Assembly: GCA_020442165.1 (NCBI GenBank)
Contig: JAGRKV010000045.1
Span: forward strand, 62,001-126,000
Direction of reading: 5' to 3'
Origin: Hyphomicrobiaceae bacterium
GTDB lineage: Bacteria; Pseudomonadota; Alphaproteobacteria; Rhizobiales; Hyphomicrobiaceae
DNA: 64,000 nt
In this document: positions 48,920 to 56,659 of the stretch, piece after piece
Layout: every line of letters starts with the position of its first letter
Numbering within the stretch: position 1 is the first letter of the stretch
Notes under the pieces: generated by a model
Seen by the model: only the letters and a program-made list of their open reading frames with translations
Told to the model about the DNA's origin: nothing
Database searches by the model: none
Translations under genes and position numbers: made by a program

Positions 48920-49261
48920 TCATGGCATATCGAAGTGAACGAGCACGGCAGCGTTGGCGATGACGATTGGATCGCCGCCGTTCGGGCCCGGCACTTCCAG
49001 GCCGCCTTTGTGCGTTTCGACTGTCACCGTGCCGTATGGCATTTCCGCTGCGACGGCGGCCTTGTCGACCTTGTCGGGTTCAGGGACACCAATGACGACG
49101 GTGATCTGCATGTCATCGCGCGACTTGCCGACGGCCTTGAACAGGTGGAGGCTCGAATGGCGGATGGCATCACTTACCGCGCGGCGCGCGGCCTTGGTGT
49201 AGTCGCGGCCGTGAACGTCGACACCCATGCCCATTTCCGTGACGCAGCGCTCAAGTGCCAT
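48920..49261 (-). CDS. Lin0512 family protein
   Basis: The 113-residue product begins MALERCVTEMGMGVDVHGRDYTKAARRAV and continues with DAIRHSSLHLFKAVGKSRDD, ITVVIGVPEPDKVD and VTVETHKGGLEVPG. It matches the Lin0512 family, which forms ring-like oligomers related to the cis-enamine/tautomerase-like folds; its substrate is unknown. I take the ATG at 49261, which gives the family N-terminus. It is 168 bases behind the large ATP-citrate-lyase-like gene on the same strand and could share its transcript. Confidence 0.85.
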   Translation of the reverse strand: MALERCVTEMGMGVDVHGRDYTKAARRAVSDAIRHSSLHLFKAVGKSRDDMQITVVIGVPEPDKVDKAAVAAEMPYGTVTVETHKGGLEVPGPNGGDPIVIANAAVLVHFDMP

Positions 49262-49429
49262 CGGTTCATTCCTCGCTCGGTGGGTGTTGCTTGGCTCGTA
49301 GCGCCAAGTCTCGGCTGGCGGGCGGCGGACCCACTGGTCAGTCAATCCCACCACCGCTGTCATGGCACGCGAGGATGGCTCGCCAGTCGTACCTTGCGCA
49401 ACGGTAAAGGCCGGGGCGGTCGGTGTCTG

Positions 49430-52156
49430 CTACACGACGAAGCCGCATTGTTCGATTGGCGTGCGGGTATCCATGTTGCGGCCACGGTTGATGTGATCGT
49501 CAATCTCGGCTGCCGCACCGATCATGCGGCCATAGAGGAAGATCGTGAACGCTGCGTTCTCCAGGTCCGCCTCGGCCAGTGTGCCGCTCTTGTAGTCCTT
49601 CCACAGCAAGGACAGCAGCAGGGCCGCGATGATGGCATCAACGTTGACGCAGAAGACGTAGGGCGAAGCGCCGACGTCGTAGAGCGCCTGCACAAGCTCG
49701 CGATAGAAGGCATGAAAGACGTTGTAGCTGTTGGTGCGCTCCATCTCCTCGGCGATGAAACGCTCACGCGGATCGAAGTTGATCGCCTTTCCCTTGAAGA
49801 CGGGGTGATGCACACCGGGGATGGACCGGCTGGGACGCCCCGCCTCTTTTGTTGCCGCCTTCTCGGCCTGGTACCCTTCCGCGTAGCGCAGGGCCATTGC
49901 CCGCAGATCAAGGCCATGATCGGGGCTCGTGGGATCGGCAAGGCCGGTGCTCTTGAACTGGTCGATTAGGAACGCCATGCCTTCATAGCCATTGCCGCCG
50001 TGGCTGTAGCCGGTGTGGGTCAAAAAGCCGATCATCGCCTTGTTGATCTGCACGCGCGCCGGTGTCTGGGGACCGTCGGCGGAAACGGCTCCTTTTGCAC
50101 CCTGGGCGGAAATTGCGCCTGGACCGTTTGAGATGAGCAGGCCGATCAGCATCTGCAGGGGTTGCGCTTCCGCATCCTTCGGCTTCTTGCCTGTGATGGC
50201 CAGATAGCACAGGTCCGCCATCGTCCATGAGCCGAAGCGTTCTGCCCGCGGGATGCCGCAAAGCATGCCGTACTGGTGGCCTTCCTTGGGGATCGTCGCT
50301 CCGACCATGACGCCATAGAGACGCAGATACCACGGCAAGGTTTCGGCCGTGAGGCGGCTGATCTTCTTGCGTACCAGCGGCTCCCACGCAATCGTCGCGG
50401 AGATCGCGGCAAGCAAGGCATCACGCGAAGGCCGCTGGTCGAGCGTCTCGATGAATTTCAGGAAAACCGAGCGGGAGCCACGATCGCGAACCGCCTGCAG
50501 TATCGCTTCGGGCCGGGGGTCTTCCGCCTCCTCGGGCGTCGCGCGGAACAGTTCCCGCGTCGCTTCATCGACCTGGATTTTCGAAACGTCGAAATCTTCA
50601 TCGCGCGCGTCGGTCAGGCCGGAGAAGGCAAACAGGTCGATCAGACGGCGCGTACATGCGAGCGCGCGTTCGACGCGCCTGGGTCCGATAATGGCGGCGG
50701 CGGCGGCCATGACGGTGTTGGGTGAGTTTCCGGCCTCACGGGCCGCATCGACGGCAATAAGGACTGCCGGATCGCGCACCAAGTTGACTTCCGCAGCGAC
50801 GGCAATATCGAGCATGGCGCGGTCATTGTCCGATCCGATCTCATGCACCAGCGGCAAGGCAAAGTTTGCTTCCAGCGGAACCCGGGCGAGATCAAGCACG
50901 CGATTGCCGTGCACCGAAGTGACCTGGGTTGAGGGATCGAGCTGTGTCGCGCCCGACTTGTCCTTCATGTTCTGACGCGGGACAACGGCACCGATCTGTC
51001 TTTTCAGGCCCGCGATCTGCACATTGTAGGGCGCCATTGCCTCAATCGGCGCGATTTCCAGTTCTGGCGGCAGCTGCAGGCCGCGATCATTCACCATCCA
51101 CGGTTTCAGAGACAGCGTTCCTTGCGGTGCGAAGTCAGGCGAGCGGCCGTTGAGCGCCATCACCGCGGTCAAGGCGTCGGGTATGTGCGAGATGTTCGTT
51201 ACCAGCGCGCCCTTAGCGGAATAGAGCCGGGAGGTATCCGCTGCTTCGGGATCGAAGATGCCTTCGGTGCCGAAGGCTTCGAGAAACCAGCGCTCCTTGT
51301 CCTCGGCGCTGTCGCCCGCGCCCGCCATGGCGCCGGCGTGGCCGACCGCGCGGGTGAGTTTTGATTTCCAGCGACCAACGACGCAGGCGACGACCGGCTT
51401 GCCGAAATCGACGCCGCGCTCGTAGTAGCCGCCGGGCTCGATGTAAAGCACTGCTGATCTCGTGCGGTCGTCGTTGCGCAGCGCATGCGCGAAGTCGCGC
51501 GCCGAATAGTGAATGTAGATGTCCTTGCCCGATGAGATCAGCGTTGTCGTTCCCCAGCCGGAAGTAGCGAGGTACTGGGCGATGGTGGTGGTGAAGCTGC
51601 CAGAGTTGGAGAATATCGCCACAGAACCCTTCTGCAGGGTTTCATCGGGTTTGTCGCCGCCCAGCGCGCCGCCGATGCGAACCCGGTTCCAGCTGTCGGC
51701 GACGCCAAGGCAATTGCCGCCGAAGATGTCGATGCCGTTGGCCTGGGCAAGCGCCCTTATCTCGCGGGCATCGTGAACGGAGACCTTCTCGGTGACGATG
51801 ACGATCTTGGTCAGGTCCGGATTGACGCGAATGAGTTCTGCTACGCCATCGCGCACGCCAGAAGGTGGCAGATAGACGACGCCAAAATTGAAGCGATGGC
51901 CTGCGTTGAGCGCCTCGCGCACGTTATTGTAGACGGGAATATCGCCTGACGGCGTCTCCAGAACCTGCCCCTGGCGGCCGGGCGACGTTCCGAACACGAT
52001 GTTGCCGCCGGAAAAGGCGTGGCTGACCGGCGATACCGTCTTCGATTCACCGCCGATGATATTCAGCACCGCAACGCGATCTTCGCGCGTGGCAATGTCT
52101 GCGAGAGATTGGATGCCGAGGTAATAGGGGAATCCAGCGATGCCTTGCCGGTACAT
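49430..52156 (-). CDS. ATP-citrate lyase-like large subunit (succinyl-CoA synthetase alpha-like plus citrate synthase-like), enlarged
   Basis: The 908-residue protein has an N-terminal CoA-binding/ligase domain related to SucD: FGTSPGRQG, GGNCLGVADSWNRVRIGG, FSNSGSFTTTIAQYL and the phospho-histidine motif VGHAGAMAGAGDSAEDK (His273). The C-terminal domain is citrate synthase-like: ADLCYLAITGKKPKDAE, YSHGGNGYEGMAFLI (His719), IPGVHHPVFKGKAINFDPRERF (His783/784), FCVNVDAIIAALLLSL (Asp840), LYGRMIGAAAEIDDH. This order and the final motifs match the C-terminal half of ATP-citrate lyase. Compared with AclB of about 605 residues there are some 300 extra residues between 345 and 640, including a helical part (AMLDIAVAAEVNLVRDPAVL) that itself looks citrate synthase-like. 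It follows the small subunit gene by 27 bases. Confidence 0.85.
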   Translation of the reverse strand: MYRQGIAGFPYYLGIQSLADIATREDRVAVLNIIGGESKTVSPVSHAFSGGNIVFGTSPGRQGQVLETPSGDIPVYNNVREALNAGHRFNFGVVYLPPSGVRDGVAELIRVNPDLTKIVIVTEKVSVHDAREIRALAQANGIDIFGGNCLGVADSWNRVRIGGALGGDKPDETLQKGSVAIFSNSGSFTTTIAQYLATSGWGTTTLISSGKDIYIHYSARDFAHALRNDDRTRSAVLYIEPGGYYERGVDFGKPVVACVVGRWKSKLTRAVGHAGAMAGAGDSAEDKERWFLEAFGTEGIFDPEAADTSRLYSAKGALVTNISHIPDALTAVMALNGRSPDFAPQGTLSLKPWMVNDRGLQLPPELEIAPIEAMAPYNVQIAGLKRQIGAVVPRQNMKDKSGATQLDPSTQVTSVHGNRVLDLARVPLEANFALPLVHEIGSDNDRAMLDIAVAAEVNLVRDPAVLIAVDAAREAGNSPNTVMAAAAAIIGPRRVERALACTRRLIDLFAFSGLTDARDEDFDVSKIQVDEATRELFRATPEEAEDPRPEAILQAVRDRGSRSVFLKFIETLDQRPSRDALLAAISATIAWEPLVRKKISRLTAETLPWYLRLYGVMVGATIPKEGHQYGMLCGIPRAERFGSWTMADLCYLAITGKKPKDAEAQPLQMLIGLLISNGPGAISAQGAKGAVSADGPQTPARVQINKAMIGFLTHTGYSHGGNGYEGMAFLIDQFKSTGLADPTSPDHGLDLRAMALRYAEGYQAEKAATKEAGRPSRSIPGVHHPVFKGKAINFDPRERFIAEEMERTNSYNVFHAFYRELVQALYDVGASPYVFCVNVDAIIAALLLSLLWKDYKSGTLAEADLENAAFTIFLYGRMIGAAAEIDDHINRGRNMDTRTPIEQCGFVV

Positions 52157-52183
52157 GGTTGTTCTGCTCGTCCTGCCGAAAGA

Positions 52184-53470
52184 TCAAGAATGTGCCGCCG
52201 GGTCGAGACCGATGGCCTTGGCCACCTGCTGGCGGCCGCCTGCGCGCATCCAGGCGTCAACCTTCCTGGCGTAGTTCACAACCTCGGAGATGGCGCTATC
52301 GAAGCCGAAAAAGCGGTAGGGCAGTCCGAGGCTTTCGCAGGTTTCCGACAGCGCGCCGAAGCCGCGGATCAGGTTGGGGCCGCCGCGCCCCACCACGACA
52401 TAGAGCGGTGTGGGACCTTGGGTCGAGAAATGCTCGCGCAGCGCATCGGCCATGGCGCGGAAGGTCTCATAGATGTCGGTGTTGTTCGACTTGCCGCCGA
52501 TAATGAAGAGGACGTTCGATTGCTTCAGAAAGTGGCGGTAGCAGATGGCCGCAACCTCTTTCATCTTCTCGTAGGGCGGGTTGCCGCCGAAGTCGGAAGA
52601 GATGACTGCGGCTTCGCCCAGCACCTCAGTGACGAGACTGTTGGCACCGCCGCCGAACGTGGGTGCGAGGATCGTTCCCTCGCTGTTGATGACGAAGACG
52701 TCGGACTGCCCCTGGTGGGTTCTGAGCTGATTGACCTCGTGCTCGAACTCGGAGAGGTCAGCGGCAAACAGGTGATCTGGCAGGTCAAGGCGTTGCACGC
52801 GGGGATCGTCGCGATCGAACTCCGCCTTGAAATCGCACGCAACCGGGGTCAAACGCCCGCCAGGACCAGGGCACATGCGGATCGGATTGAGTTCCAGCGT
52901 GGTCATCCCGTAGTGGTGGACCAGTTCCCAGAGCTTGGGCAAATGCTGCACGAGCGGCGAGATGATCTCGCGCGGGGCGCCAAGATCGGTCAATGCATTG
53001 GCGACAACGAAGGCCTTGAGGCCGGTCAACGCTTCGAAGGGAACAGTCGCGACGTCCGATTTGCCCAGTTCCTCGATATCGATGCCGCCCTTGTGGCTGA
53101 TGGTGATGGTCGGCGCGCGGTATCGCGTATCGTCGGTGATCGAGAAGTAAACCTCATGCTCGGCAGGCACACCCGCCTCGAACGTGACACCGTTGGCCTT
53201 GGCGATAGAATTGCCGTGCCGGTGCTCGACAAAATAGAGGCGTTCCTTTTCGGCAAGTGCCGTCTTGAGGTCACGCACCTTGCCGATGAGGCCGGATTTG
53301 CCCTTCTTGCCGACGCCACCCTTGAACAGCGGCTTGACGAACACCAGGCCATGACGTGCGATAAAGTCCTGCAATTCGTCTTCACTGGCACCGGGGCCCA
53401 GCACCTCGGCCGTAGGAAAATCGACGTGGCGCAGCAGGCGCGCGCCATAAAGCATGCCGGTCAACTGCAC
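52184..53470 (-). CDS. ATP-citrate lyase-like small subunit (ATP-grasp plus citrate-binding domain)
   Basis: The 428-residue protein has an ATP-grasp domain related to SucC: GLVFVKPLFKGGVGKKGKSG, HGLVF and GMTTLELNPIRM (metal and nucleotide site). It then has a citrate-binding domain of ATP-citrate lyase type: NSEGTILAPTFGGGANSLVT, SSDFGGNPPYEKMKEVA, VLFIIGGKSNNTDIYETFRA and VVGRGGPNLIRGF. With the next gene it should make the complex that splits citrate and CoA with ATP to acetyl-CoA and oxaloacetate. The start is a GTG at 53470 with GGAGGG about 8 bases upstream. Confidence 0.87.
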   Translation of the reverse strand: MQLTGMLYGARLLRHVDFPTAEVLGPGASEDELQDFIARHGLVFVKPLFKGGVGKKGKSGLIGKVRDLKTALAEKERLYFVEHRHGNSIAKANGVTFEAGVPAEHEVYFSITDDTRYRAPTITISHKGGIDIEELGKSDVATVPFEALTGLKAFVVANALTDLGAPREIISPLVQHLPKLWELVHHYGMTTLELNPIRMCPGPGGRLTPVACDFKAEFDRDDPRVQRLDLPDHLFAADLSEFEHEVNQLRTHQGQSDVFVINSEGTILAPTFGGGANSLVTEVLGEAAVISSDFGGNPPYEKMKEVAAICYRHFLKQSNVLFIIGGKSNNTDIYETFRAMADALREHFSTQGPTPLYVVVGRGGPNLIRGFGALSETCESLGLPYRFFGFDSAISEVVNYARKVDAWMRAGGRQQVAKAIGLDPAAHS

Positions 53471-53820
53471 GATCCGGACCCTCCCGTGGCAGGATCATCG
53501 GGTTTCGCAAGTCCCCTGCAGATCACCACCGTGCGCTACTGCCTTCCAGGAGCGGGCAACGAAGGTTGTCGCGCCGGGGCAGCTTGTTTGTGTTGTCGTC
53601 GCATGGGCTGCTACGCCTTACAGAAGCCAGCCTGCAACTGAAGTTCACTCTATGCGGCTTGCACGCCAACGTCAGGTCTTTTCGCGCCTTGTGCGCCTTC
53701 CCGCCGCAGAGTCGCTCGGACTGATGGGGTGGAACGCACACAGGCTGCGCATTGCTGCCCTCAAGTGCTGAAAAATTAGGCGTTGCTGCGTTGGTGACAT
53801 CCTGATCGCACACGCGGCTG
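53471..53820. other. Intergenic region, no gene recognised
   Basis: The stretch between the ATP-citrate-lyase-like operon and the nadV terminator. Short frames exist but have no ribosome site or recognisable product. It should hold the promoter of the leftward lyase operon; a -35/-10 pair could not be placed with confidence. Confidence 0.4.
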
Positions 53821-53904: not shown

Positions 53905-55365
53905 TCAGGCAGCGCGGCTCATGGAACTCTCCTCCGCCAGTGCGCGCACATCCGCCAGCGTGGTGCGGTGGAGCAGCTCTCCGTCGCGCCAGACCGGCTT
54001 CAAGAGGTTCTCGCGCGAGCCAAGATCCTCACGCCGGCACCAACCATACGCGCCGTCTTTGTCCCTAAAGACCGCAAGTCTGCCGGCCTTCGATGCCTTG
54101 CCCGGATCGGTCTTAGGAGACTTGGCCAGGTCGTGCCATTGACCGGAGGCGTCCTCGCGGGCGTTGGCCTTCATGGCGAAACGCAAAGTGTCGCGGTTCA
54201 CCTTCTGCAGGAGCGCTGCTCCCATGCCGAAGGCGATGTTTTCAGCAGACCAGCCTTTGGCCAGCAGCCGTTCCAGGATGACCTTTATGGACTCTGGATT
54301 GACACCATCGCCCTGGATCACGCGTACCGCGGGATCGAGCACCTTGTAGCCCTTGGCGTTGATGGTGAACCCATAGGCCTCGCCCAGCATATCGATGACG
54401 TCGATCGGCACGACGGTCGGATCACCACTGTCGGGGCGCACGACGACGGTGCCGCCCATCTGGCGAACTTCCTCCTTCAAAGTGTCTCCCCATGTCTGCC
54501 GAACCGCGCGATAGATGTCGTAGCTGTCCGAGACGACCGCGACGAGTTTCCCCGGTCCGCCGAAGCGCCGGAGCATATTGCGGAACGCTTCCGGCTCGCC
54601 CTCCTCGCCCCATGCCGTCATGGTTGAGTGCTCGGCAGCGGGAATGGAGAACCCTGCCATCGGTTCATCGTAAAACGCGCGGGCGTAGCTCAGCGCCGTC
54701 AACGTATCGGTGCCCATGAAGTTGACGAGATGGGCAAGGCCGCCGATCCCCGCCTGCTCGAAACTCGTTGTGCCGCGGGCGCCAAAGTCGTGCAGCGTAA
54801 AGGGCAGCACGGCGCGCGCTACATCGGGTTCGGCACTTTTTTCCAGTGCGTCACGGATCGTCTGCTTCACGCCCCACGACACAGTCGCAACCGTCGATGG
54901 ATACCAGATCGCGCGCAGCAGTGCCGTCTCGATGTAAGTGGCGAGCCAGAACAGCTGCGGGTCGGTCGTGCGCACCTGGACGAGCGGGATGCCGGCAGGG
55001 ACGACACTGCCCTCCGGCAGAGCTTCAATCTTGAGCGGCAGATGCCCACGGTGCTTCTTGACGATACGCTCCCAGCCATCGCGGTTGAACGGCAGGCCGT
55101 GCGCGATCGTGATGCTTTCCGCTTCGTCGATGTCAGCCGCCGTCACGCGCTCGGTCAGATAATCGAGCAGGAACATCTGCAGCCCGAAAAACAGCACATG
55201 ATCCATGTCGCCGCCCTTGCGTGCCTCGACGTAAGCAGAGACCGCGCGGGTTCCGGGTGGATACTGCAGGTAATGGGAGAGCTTGTAGCTATCGGTATTG
55301 AGGATCGGATTGCGCATGCCGCTGCCGTGCGGCCGCATCGTATCGCTTGCGATCTTGATGGTCAT
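53905..55365 (-). CDS. nadV: Nicotinamide phosphoribosyltransferase
   Basis: NadV (NAMPT-like) makes NMN from nicotinamide and PRPP. The 486-residue protein shows ILNTDSYKLSHYLQYPPGT, FFGLQMFL, FTLHDFGARGTTSFEQAGIGG, FSIPAAEHSTMTAWGEEGE, VVSDSYDIYRAV, VVVRPDSGDPTVV and FGMGAALLQKVNRDTLRFAMK. The HDFGxRG block and the length match NAMPT rather than nicotinate phosphoribosyltransferase. AGAGGAG precedes the ATG. The nadM-Nudix gene is 80 bases upstream, so nicotinamide goes to NMN and then NAD by two adjacent genes. Confidence 0.94.
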   Translation of the reverse strand: MTIKIASDTMRPHGSGMRNPILNTDSYKLSHYLQYPPGTRAVSAYVEARKGGDMDHVLFFGLQMFLLDYLTERVTAADIDEAESITIAHGLPFNRDGWERIVKKHRGHLPLKIEALPEGSVVPAGIPLVQVRTTDPQLFWLATYIETALLRAIWYPSTVATVSWGVKQTIRDALEKSAEPDVARAVLPFTLHDFGARGTTSFEQAGIGGLAHLVNFMGTDTLTALSYARAFYDEPMAGFSIPAAEHSTMTAWGEEGEPEAFRNMLRRFGGPGKLVAVVSDSYDIYRAVRQTWGDTLKEEVRQMGGTVVVRPDSGDPTVVPIDVIDMLGEAYGFTINAKGYKVLDPAVRVIQGDGVNPESIKVILERLLAKGWSAENIAFGMGAALLQKVNRDTLRFAMKANAREDASGQWHDLAKSPKTDPGKASKAGRLAVFRDKDGAYGWCRREDLGSRENLLKPVWRDGELLHRTTLADVRALAEESSMSRAA

Positions 55366-55445
55366 GGCGAGAACTCCTCTTGCCGGTTGCCGGCACCCGG
55401 ACTCCCCGGATGCCTAGGGTCGTGAAAAACTGTGCCTGTGGCTGC

Positions 55446-56519
55446 TCAGATGCCCGTCATCGCCTGGAGAATGAACCAGTGATCGTCAAGGAACTGGCGA
55501 GGTTCGAGATCGCCTAGGCGATACCATTCGGCATGTGCTGCATCGTCGCCGCCCTTCACCTTGAACAGCTTGCGGCGGTCGGGGCAGCGGAACAGGAACG
55601 CATTCGTTATGGTGCGGCCCCTGGCCGAGCGGTCCGGCGCGTCGAAGACGCGCGTTGCGCCATCGACGATGAAGGACGCCAGCATTGCGGGCGGGATCGG
55701 GCCTTTCTGGTCGGCGATGCTGGTCTCTTCCCGCAACTCGCGTATGGCAGCATCGCGCAAGCGCTCGTTCACATCGATGAAGCCACCCGGCAACGCCAAC
55801 AGCCCCTCGCCCGGCCGGATGCGGCGGCGGACCAACAGCACATGGCCCGACTGCTCGACGACGCAATCTACGGTGACGAACGTCGGCGGGTAAGGCGCTG
55901 CTTGCCAGCTCTTCTTGTAGTCAGCAATATATTCCGCCTCGGCGACCAGCCATGCGAACTCAGGCGTCAACCGGAAGGCTTCGAGTTGCCTCACCACCTC
56001 TAGCGGACAGGTGTCGCGCGGCAGGATCGGTGCGCGGCGGAAATAGTCGGCGCGGATGTCGGTTGCCGCGAACGTGCCGTAGGGTGCCTCGATCTCGACG
56101 AGGTCCCATTCGGGAAACGACTTCAGATAGCTGCTCGAAGCGTCCCTTGAATAGCCGACGATGCCGACGGCAAAGTCCTTGATGCCGTGAAGCGTCGCGG
56201 TTTTTGGATTGGCGTGATCCAGCACGGCACGGCTGACGGCCCGCTGCACACCGGCGACCCAGGCCGTCTCGTTGTAGGCAAAATCATCGACCGGCAGGAT
56301 GACCAGACGGCCTGCCGCAACTTCTTCCGGGAATACCGCACGCAGCATTGCTGCGCGTTCATCGAACGTGAACGGGTTCTTGACCGACCGCGCGACGTTG
56401 GGCGAGCCGATGAGCACGATTGTGTGCCGCGCCTGGCCCAGGGCGGTCGAAATTACGTGGCGATGTCCGAGATGGAATGGCTGGAAGCGGCCTATGAAGG
56501 CCAGATAATCATAGATCAT
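55446..56519 (-). CDS. nadM: Bifunctional NMN adenylyltransferase/Nudix hydrolase
   Basis: The 357-residue product joins an N-terminal nucleotidyltransferase (DYLAFIGRFQPFHLGHRHVI with the HxGH motif, then FTFDERAAMLRAVFPEE and VGYSRDASSSYLKSFPEWDL) that makes NAD from NMN, and a C-terminal Nudix hydrolase (GGFIDVNERLRDAAIRELREET, a complete Nudix box GX5EX7REUXEE variant) that probably splits ADP-ribose. The start ATG at 56519 has GGGAG upstream; the earlier in-frame start at 56576 adds residues unlike the family. It works with NadV just downstream. Confidence 0.94.
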   Translation of the reverse strand: MIYDYLAFIGRFQPFHLGHRHVISTALGQARHTIVLIGSPNVARSVKNPFTFDERAAMLRAVFPEEVAAGRLVILPVDDFAYNETAWVAGVQRAVSRAVLDHANPKTATLHGIKDFAVGIVGYSRDASSSYLKSFPEWDLVEIEAPYGTFAATDIRADYFRRAPILPRDTCPLEVVRQLEAFRLTPEFAWLVAEAEYIADYKKSWQAAPYPPTFVTVDCVVEQSGHVLLVRRRIRPGEGLLALPGGFIDVNERLRDAAIRELREETSIADQKGPIPPAMLASFIVDGATRVFDAPDRSARGRTITNAFLFRCPDRRKLFKVKGGDDAAHAEWYRLGDLEPRQFLDDHWFILQAMTGI

Positions 56520-56659
56520 GCCGAGACTCCCTCGACTATTGCGAATTGCCGCCACGAACTCCTCGTAACGGCTCACTCAATATGGGCGTACATCGCCCCC
56601 GCGTGAAGAGGGCAATTCCTTGTTCGCTTATTTTTGATGAATGGAAGAGCAGCGGCGCT

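Follow-up and report, generated by a model that had tools for sequence, protein, structure and literature searches.

The window analysed here, a 64,000-nucleotide (nt) stretch of Hyphomicrobiaceae bacterium contig JAGRKV010000045.1 (positions 62,001 to 126,000; assembly GCA_020442165.1), carries on its minus strand a two-gene pair resembling ATP-citrate lyase (ACL), which raises the question of what such an enzyme, with a large subunit of 908 amino acids (aa), does in this organism. An earlier note, made from the sequence letters, took it for an ATP-citrate lyase that had diverged and had perhaps duplicated its synthase domain, one copy having degenerated. Our analysis indicates that the pair is probably an ATP-citrate lyase of the little-studied type II family, whose large subunit is predicted to contain one intact and one degenerate lyase copy, in a branch of the family that appears tied to tricarboxylate use. 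Both open reading frames (ORFs) described in the earlier note were found in place on the minus strand, with 27 nt between the small- and large-subunit genes, and the parts of the pair are as follows.

52184..53470, minus strand: small subunit, AclA-like, 428 aa, GTG start, with ATP-grasp and citrate-binding domains (Pfam, identity to MC-1)
49430..52156 (stop codon within the coordinates), minus strand: large subunit, 908 aa (Pfam and homology)
51122..52156, minus strand: SucD-like part, large-subunit residues 1-345
50249..51043, minus strand: predicted citryl-CoA lyase copy, degenerate, modelled as residues 372-636 with the fold match at ~394-626 (model, fold matches, profile comparison)
49433..50248, minus strand: predicted intact citryl-CoA lyase copy, residues 637-908 (NCBIfam, profile comparison, conserved motifs)
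51338..51340, minus strand: H273, predicted phosphohistidine (SucD-family alignment; 99/99 rows)
50000..50002, minus strand: H719 of HGG (99/99 rows; aligned with the HGG motif in citryl-CoA lyase-like proteins)
49805..49807, minus strand: H784 (99/99 rows; aligned with the GxGH histidine)
49637..49639, minus strand: D840 of NVD (99/99 rows; aligned with N-V/I-D of citryl-CoA lyase-like proteins)
49526..49528, minus strand: R877 (99/99 rows)

The gene pair belongs to the type II ATP-citrate lyase family

The reading of the small subunit as an ATP-grasp, citrate-binding protein was borne out by Pfam matches to Citrate_bind and ATP-grasp_2, both above the curated cut-offs. On the large subunit Succ_CoA_lig alone exceeded its curated cut-off, and the NCBIfam citryl-CoA lyase family matched residues 640-899 with an E value of 4e-8 (32.9 bits against a cut-off of 212). 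The closest solved relatives of both subunits by sequence were those of Hydrogenobacter citryl-CoA synthetase, 6hxq.

The large subunit was 53.1-56.9% identical over its whole length to nine rows of a group comprising Magnetococcus marinus MC-1 and tubeworm symbionts, with 54.4% identity to MC-1 and 54.3% to an MO-1 protein that carries the name type II ACL among 120 listed relatives out of 3018. The small subunit was 68.8% identical to that of MC-1 over 423 aa. Judging by organism and family, entry P0121 would be Mmc1_3638 or 3639, the MC-1 genes that PMC6783814 describes as a postulated type II ACL; the same text reports that citrate cleavage was detected in MC-1 though the conventional genes were missing, an activity of the organism and not of the present protein. 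The term "type II ACL" is used after Hugler and Sievert 2011 in PMC3522073, which gives large-subunit primers that translate as VAKEEWF and NGFEAIA. MC-1 has LAKEEWF and NGFEAIA at these positions (13/14 residues, by eye), and the window has the similar, not identical, DKERWF and NGYEGMA (by eye). Large subunits named as type II are 905-916 aa long. By sequence, the gene pair is a member of type II ATP-citrate lyase, and an architecture of ~905-908 aa is the usual one in this family rather than an enlargement in this organism, so the "enlarged" large subunit of the earlier note is no peculiarity. That note had also named a well-described family of the same architecture as grounds for rejecting its proposal; the family is indeed named in print, and in one open-access library, searched in part, no description of tandem lyase domains in type II ACL was found, nor any tie between type II ACL and tricarballylate or tricarboxylate-transport operons. 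New here is a separate transport-linked branch; the architecture itself is common to known type II proteins.

Compared with the postulated type II enzymes of MC-1 and the tubeworm endosymbionts, the pair is homologous over the full length of both subunits and alike in large-subunit length and active-site residues, but it is only 53-57% identical, falls in a separate 46-row clade, lies in a branch with transport instead of reductive tricarboxylic acid (rTCA) cycle contexts, and has S718 and H783 beside the catalytic histidines. Type I AclA/AclB (Chlorobium limicola, 6hxj) and human ACLY share the SucD-like part, the citrate-binding ATP-grasp subunit and the C-terminal lyase domain. However, these have one lyase domain per chain (the 6hxj large chain is 617 aa), and the window protein, with 908 aa and two predicted lyase-fold domains, departs from the single lyase domain and ~600-aa large subunit of that type, to which its similarity is weaker than to citryl-CoA synthetase. 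Citryl-CoA synthetase and lyase, the nearest solved relatives of both subunits in sequence and of the middle domain in fold, are separate enzymes, whereas the window protein unites the two in a fusion and adds a second lyase copy that is degenerate. Succinyl-CoA synthetase (SucCD) resembles the pair in its ATP-grasp fold and in the SucD-like part with the GHAGA histidine, but is without lyase domains, and the window protein scored 111 against the NCBIfam SucD cut-off of 336.

Active-site residues are conserved in the C-terminal lyase copy

Residues H273, H719, H784, D840, R877, R891 and R898 were identical in all 99 aligned large-subunit rows, and H273 aligned with the histidine of the SucD-type GHAGA motif. 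The earlier note's assignments of the SucD-like His273, of His719 and Asp840, and of the final block of ATP-citrate lyase with its invariant R877 therefore stood; of its His783/784 pair, residue 784 was conserved throughout, but residue 783 was histidine in 45 and asparagine in 54 of the 99 rows. In a profile alignment the HGG, the GxxH histidine, DPR and NVD aligned with the equivalent motifs of citryl-CoA lyase-like proteins. Q685 was also invariant; the corresponding position is presumably histidine in animal ACLY. The small-subunit alignment comprised 79 rows, with L096 (stop within the match) and loci below 80% coverage left out, and the stretches GGK.NNTDI and RGGP were common to all of them. 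The hallmarks of ATP-citrate lyases in general were all present by sequence: the phosphohistidine, an ATP-grasp subunit of citrate-binding type, and a lyase domain that keeps its catalytic residues.

The middle domain is predicted to be a second, degenerate lyase copy

The earlier note had described ~300 extra residues (345-640) lacking HGG, with a second helical stretch resembling a synthase core. The region is real, and the fold match could be narrowed to ~394-626: a Foldseek search with the predicted middle domain matched 6hxp with an E value of 1.1e-4, and the top 23 VIA rows were all citryl-CoA lyase or ATP-citrate lyase, followed by citrate synthases. Confidence in the full large-subunit model was low around residues 346-380. 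Profile comparison with hhalign scored 65.5 between the middle and C-terminal copies (maximum 23.9 in 30 column shuffles) and 51.2 between the middle copy and citryl-CoA lyase-like proteins (maximum 21.3 in 30 column shuffles), with at most 20.5 for eight unrelated control families. Searches of the PDB with sequence profiles built from the middle domain and from the C-terminal domain found nothing meaningful (best E values 0.29 and 0.74, respectively), and for this reason the middle-domain assignment is based on predicted structure and on comparison with the lyase-like profile. The lyase-like set numbered 14, with L139 dropped (wrong frame), L136 and L138 untrimmed, and the longest open segment used for L135 and L141, which have a stop within the match; only L134 was above the NCBIfam citryl-CoA lyase cut-off. 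At that locus (G001:C7:4639-6441) the SucD-like gene shares 37% identity with the corresponding part of the window's large subunit and is followed by a separate citryl-CoA lyase gene, and by sequence this genome of the phylum has the unfused arrangement of the two.

No column between 346 and 636 was histidine in all 99 rows, the best being 627 (89/99) and 416 (78/99). Aligned with the lyase-like proteins, the middle copy has R494 in place of H719; aligned with the C-terminal copy, the HGG stretch is shifted, unlike its placement against the lyase-like proteins. The middle domain is predicted to have the same fold as citryl-CoA lyase, without a counterpart of the two histidines, and for these reasons it is likely a dead copy that serves as a structural partner. 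We consider it very unlikely that the region is instead an unrelated helical domain, an outcome that the earlier note had named as counting against its proposal: the fold search returned lyases instead, and both hhalign scores lie far above those of the shuffles and of the unrelated families. Fold search, profile comparison and conservation together back the reading of the pair as an ATP-citrate lyase that is divergent and has a second, degenerate domain of synthase-like type. The tandem domains may have arisen either by internal duplication or by fusion of two different lyases.

Gene context separates transport-linked and rTCA branches

Gene context was compared at 86 loci (80 named contigs, 5 plasmids and the window), with neighbouring genes identified by tblastn with representatives in place of longest-ORF calling, which was confounded by antisense ORFs. 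One such ORF of 540 aa lies in the window antisense to the small subunit (52019-53641, plus strand), is like those called in 32 loci, and is probably a shadow of GC-rich coding DNA. The small subunit was present at 82/86 loci, the remaining four (L046, L059, L086, L106) having only 89-504 nt of sequence on that side, and the gap between the small- and large-subunit match edges was at most 100 nt in 70/82. Generic two-component hits were excluded from the definition of transport context. TctA-type permeases were found at 26/86 loci, against a background of 43 match rows in ~66.5 Mb from ten carrier genomes (~0.65 per Mb, or ~0.013 per 20 kb, with fragments counted and the genomes chosen rather than drawn at random); in 12 loci TctA lay upstream in the same orientation, at a distance of 34-347 nt from the small-subunit match. 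In 11 loci a match to a 4HBT thioesterase query started at most 120 nt downstream, with 31-80% identity; the query itself scored best with the NCBIfam family YciA, below cut-off. A TcuC-like symporter match lay directly downstream in eight loci, and the two tested (L116, L117) both passed the NCBIfam TcuC cut-off; the label M was given to nine loci, among which L113 had only a 27% match, upstream. TcuA and TcuB were each found at five loci, and one representative of each passed its cut-off.

A quick large-subunit tree was built without bootstrap (support values starred), from which only the window's clade and the separation of R and T labels were used. The window's clade contained 46 rows (100, starred) and 42 loci, of which 23 were transport-labelled, 2 thioesterase only, 17 unlabelled and none rTCA-labelled. 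The MC-1/symbiont group (10 rows; 100, starred) and an rTCA-context group (12 rows; 99, starred) were weakly joined (75), and all nine rTCA-labelled loci grouped with the MC-1/symbiont rows or close to them. A single change on the tree is the minimum that accounts for the R and T labels, and a further 28-row clade held nine M-labelled, six T-labelled, two H-labelled and 11 unlabelled loci. The family therefore has two kinds of gene context, transport-linked and rTCA. Between the window's clade and the rTCA part, 11 positions differed while being conserved (90% or more) in both, 718 and 783 among them.

Within 10 kb either side of the window pair tblastn found no Tct or Tcu genes, and no KorABC/HdrA, aconitase or isocitrate dehydrogenase genes were found there. 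At L042, the window's nearest relative with a locus, TctC-TctA lies directly upstream. Across the window's branch, gene context thus speaks for the use of tricarboxylates and not for the rTCA cycle. Downstream of the large subunit (48923-49363, minus strand) is a member of the functionally uncharacterised Lin0512 family (PF09585 match at E 2.8e-35), and upstream (53905-56576, minus strand) are two ORFs that by eye look like NAD-salvage genes, one for nicotinamide phosphoribosyltransferase and the other for a NadM/Nudix fusion.

Proposed function and alternatives

The gene pair is predicted from sequence to encode an enzyme that uses ATP to cleave citrate, its putative substrate, yielding acetyl-CoA and oxaloacetate. 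Following the established chemistry of ATP-citrate lyase and succinyl-CoA synthetase, the small subunit would by homology bind citrate along with ATP, the large subunit's H273 would relay phosphate, citryl-CoA would form on the SucD-like part, and the C-terminal domain (H719, H784, D840) would cleave it. Other ATP-citrate lyases draw their four lyase modules from four chains; here two chains would be enough. In the window's branch, imported citrate, or citrate from tricarballylate, would likely be converted to acetyl-CoA and oxaloacetate, as suggested by relatives' operons and not by the window's own neighbours. It is rather unlikely that the transporter-linked branch performs the same ligase-lyase chemistry on another hydroxy acid, such as methylcitrate, hydroxycitrate or a tricarballylate-derived compound. 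Such a substrate would fit the TcuA/TcuB-, TcuC- and PrpF-family genes among the neighbours and the 11 conserved differences, two of them next to catalytic histidines, but the small subunit remains 69% identical to that of MC-1 with its GGK.NNTDI and RGGP stretches kept, every catalytic residue tested is unchanged, and known routes take tricarballylate and aconitate to citrate.

A working rTCA cycle in the window's organism, with the lyase as key enzyme, appears highly improbable. The family is known from rTCA organisms, and nine of its loci carry KorABC/HdrA (scored as KorA/HdrA) and/or aconitase with isocitrate dehydrogenase, but none of these is among the 42 loci of the window's clade. The host genome, 96% complete at 4.3 Mb, encodes a single citrate synthase, three TctA permeases at other places, and one RuBisCO large subunit with Calvin-cycle-like neighbours (ORFs read by eye as CbbX, aldolase, Pgk and transketolase). 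PF01558 had only two matches, one in a cluster just 26-28% identical to rTCA-type KorAB and the other in a 1190-aa frame, no genome-wide search having been made for KorAB itself. An rTCA role in the host is unlikely because of its citrate synthase, RuBisCO cluster and PF01558 matches. The genome also contains (L128, 5460-10021) a 2-oxoacid oxidoreductase cluster that by eye resembles phenylglyoxylate dehydrogenase, beside glycogen-metabolism-like ORFs.

Distribution

At least 586 pattern-matching stretches were found in GTDB representative genomes, at least 428 of which encode a relative (tblastn E 1e-3, full length not required). The named loci are the best 80 of these, with nearly the whole query covered except in L109, L114 and at a few ends, and come from Alpha-, Beta- and Gammaproteobacteria and from metagenome-assembled genomes labelled SAR324 and Anaerolineae. 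Of 85 matching plasmid records, 19 covered 80% or more of the query. When 398 genomes were sampled evenly across the phylum, 46 matched at E 1e-20, 39 (the window's included) extending into the lyase part and seven SucD-like only. In a set of 60 near relatives the window's genome alone went beyond a SucD-like match, and in 0/35 other genomes of its own family did a match at E 1e-20 reach past the SucD-like part. The distribution is patchy and partly plasmid-borne. The statement that ATP-citrate lyase is uncommon in alphaproteobacteria needs qualifying in that alphaproteobacteria account for many of the 80 named loci, though patchily; the attribution to an alphaproteobacterium fits the nearest named relative, P0004, a "Hyphomicrobiaceae bacterium". 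The contigs labelled Anaerolineae and SAR324 (L076, L087) carry proteobacterial-family proteins, reflecting either transfer or binning error. The conjugative plasmid pUSP3 of Aminobacter sp. MSH1 (L003) carries the pair, and a gene with the annotation CBASS phospholipase lies ~750 nt away.

Implications

ATP-citrate lyase is widely taken as a marker of CO2 fixation by the rTCA cycle. The window's enzyme by itself is probably no sign of CO2 fixation, because many relatives in its branch adjoin uptake genes for citrate-like acids. More tentatively, type II may be a distinct design, with one dead and one live module per chain, a two-chain core and half the active sites; through its large catabolic branch, proteobacteria that feed on citrate and tricarballylate would reach acetyl-CoA directly at the cost of ATP, and type II ACL genes would then be no marker of CO2 fixation. 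If this is true, reading ATP-citrate lyase as such a marker would be wrong for many proteobacteria, and a family filed in databases as "CoA-binding protein" would gain a function open to testing. With its half-dead tandem design, the lyase core would offer a test of how lyase modules evolve and why they are multimeric.

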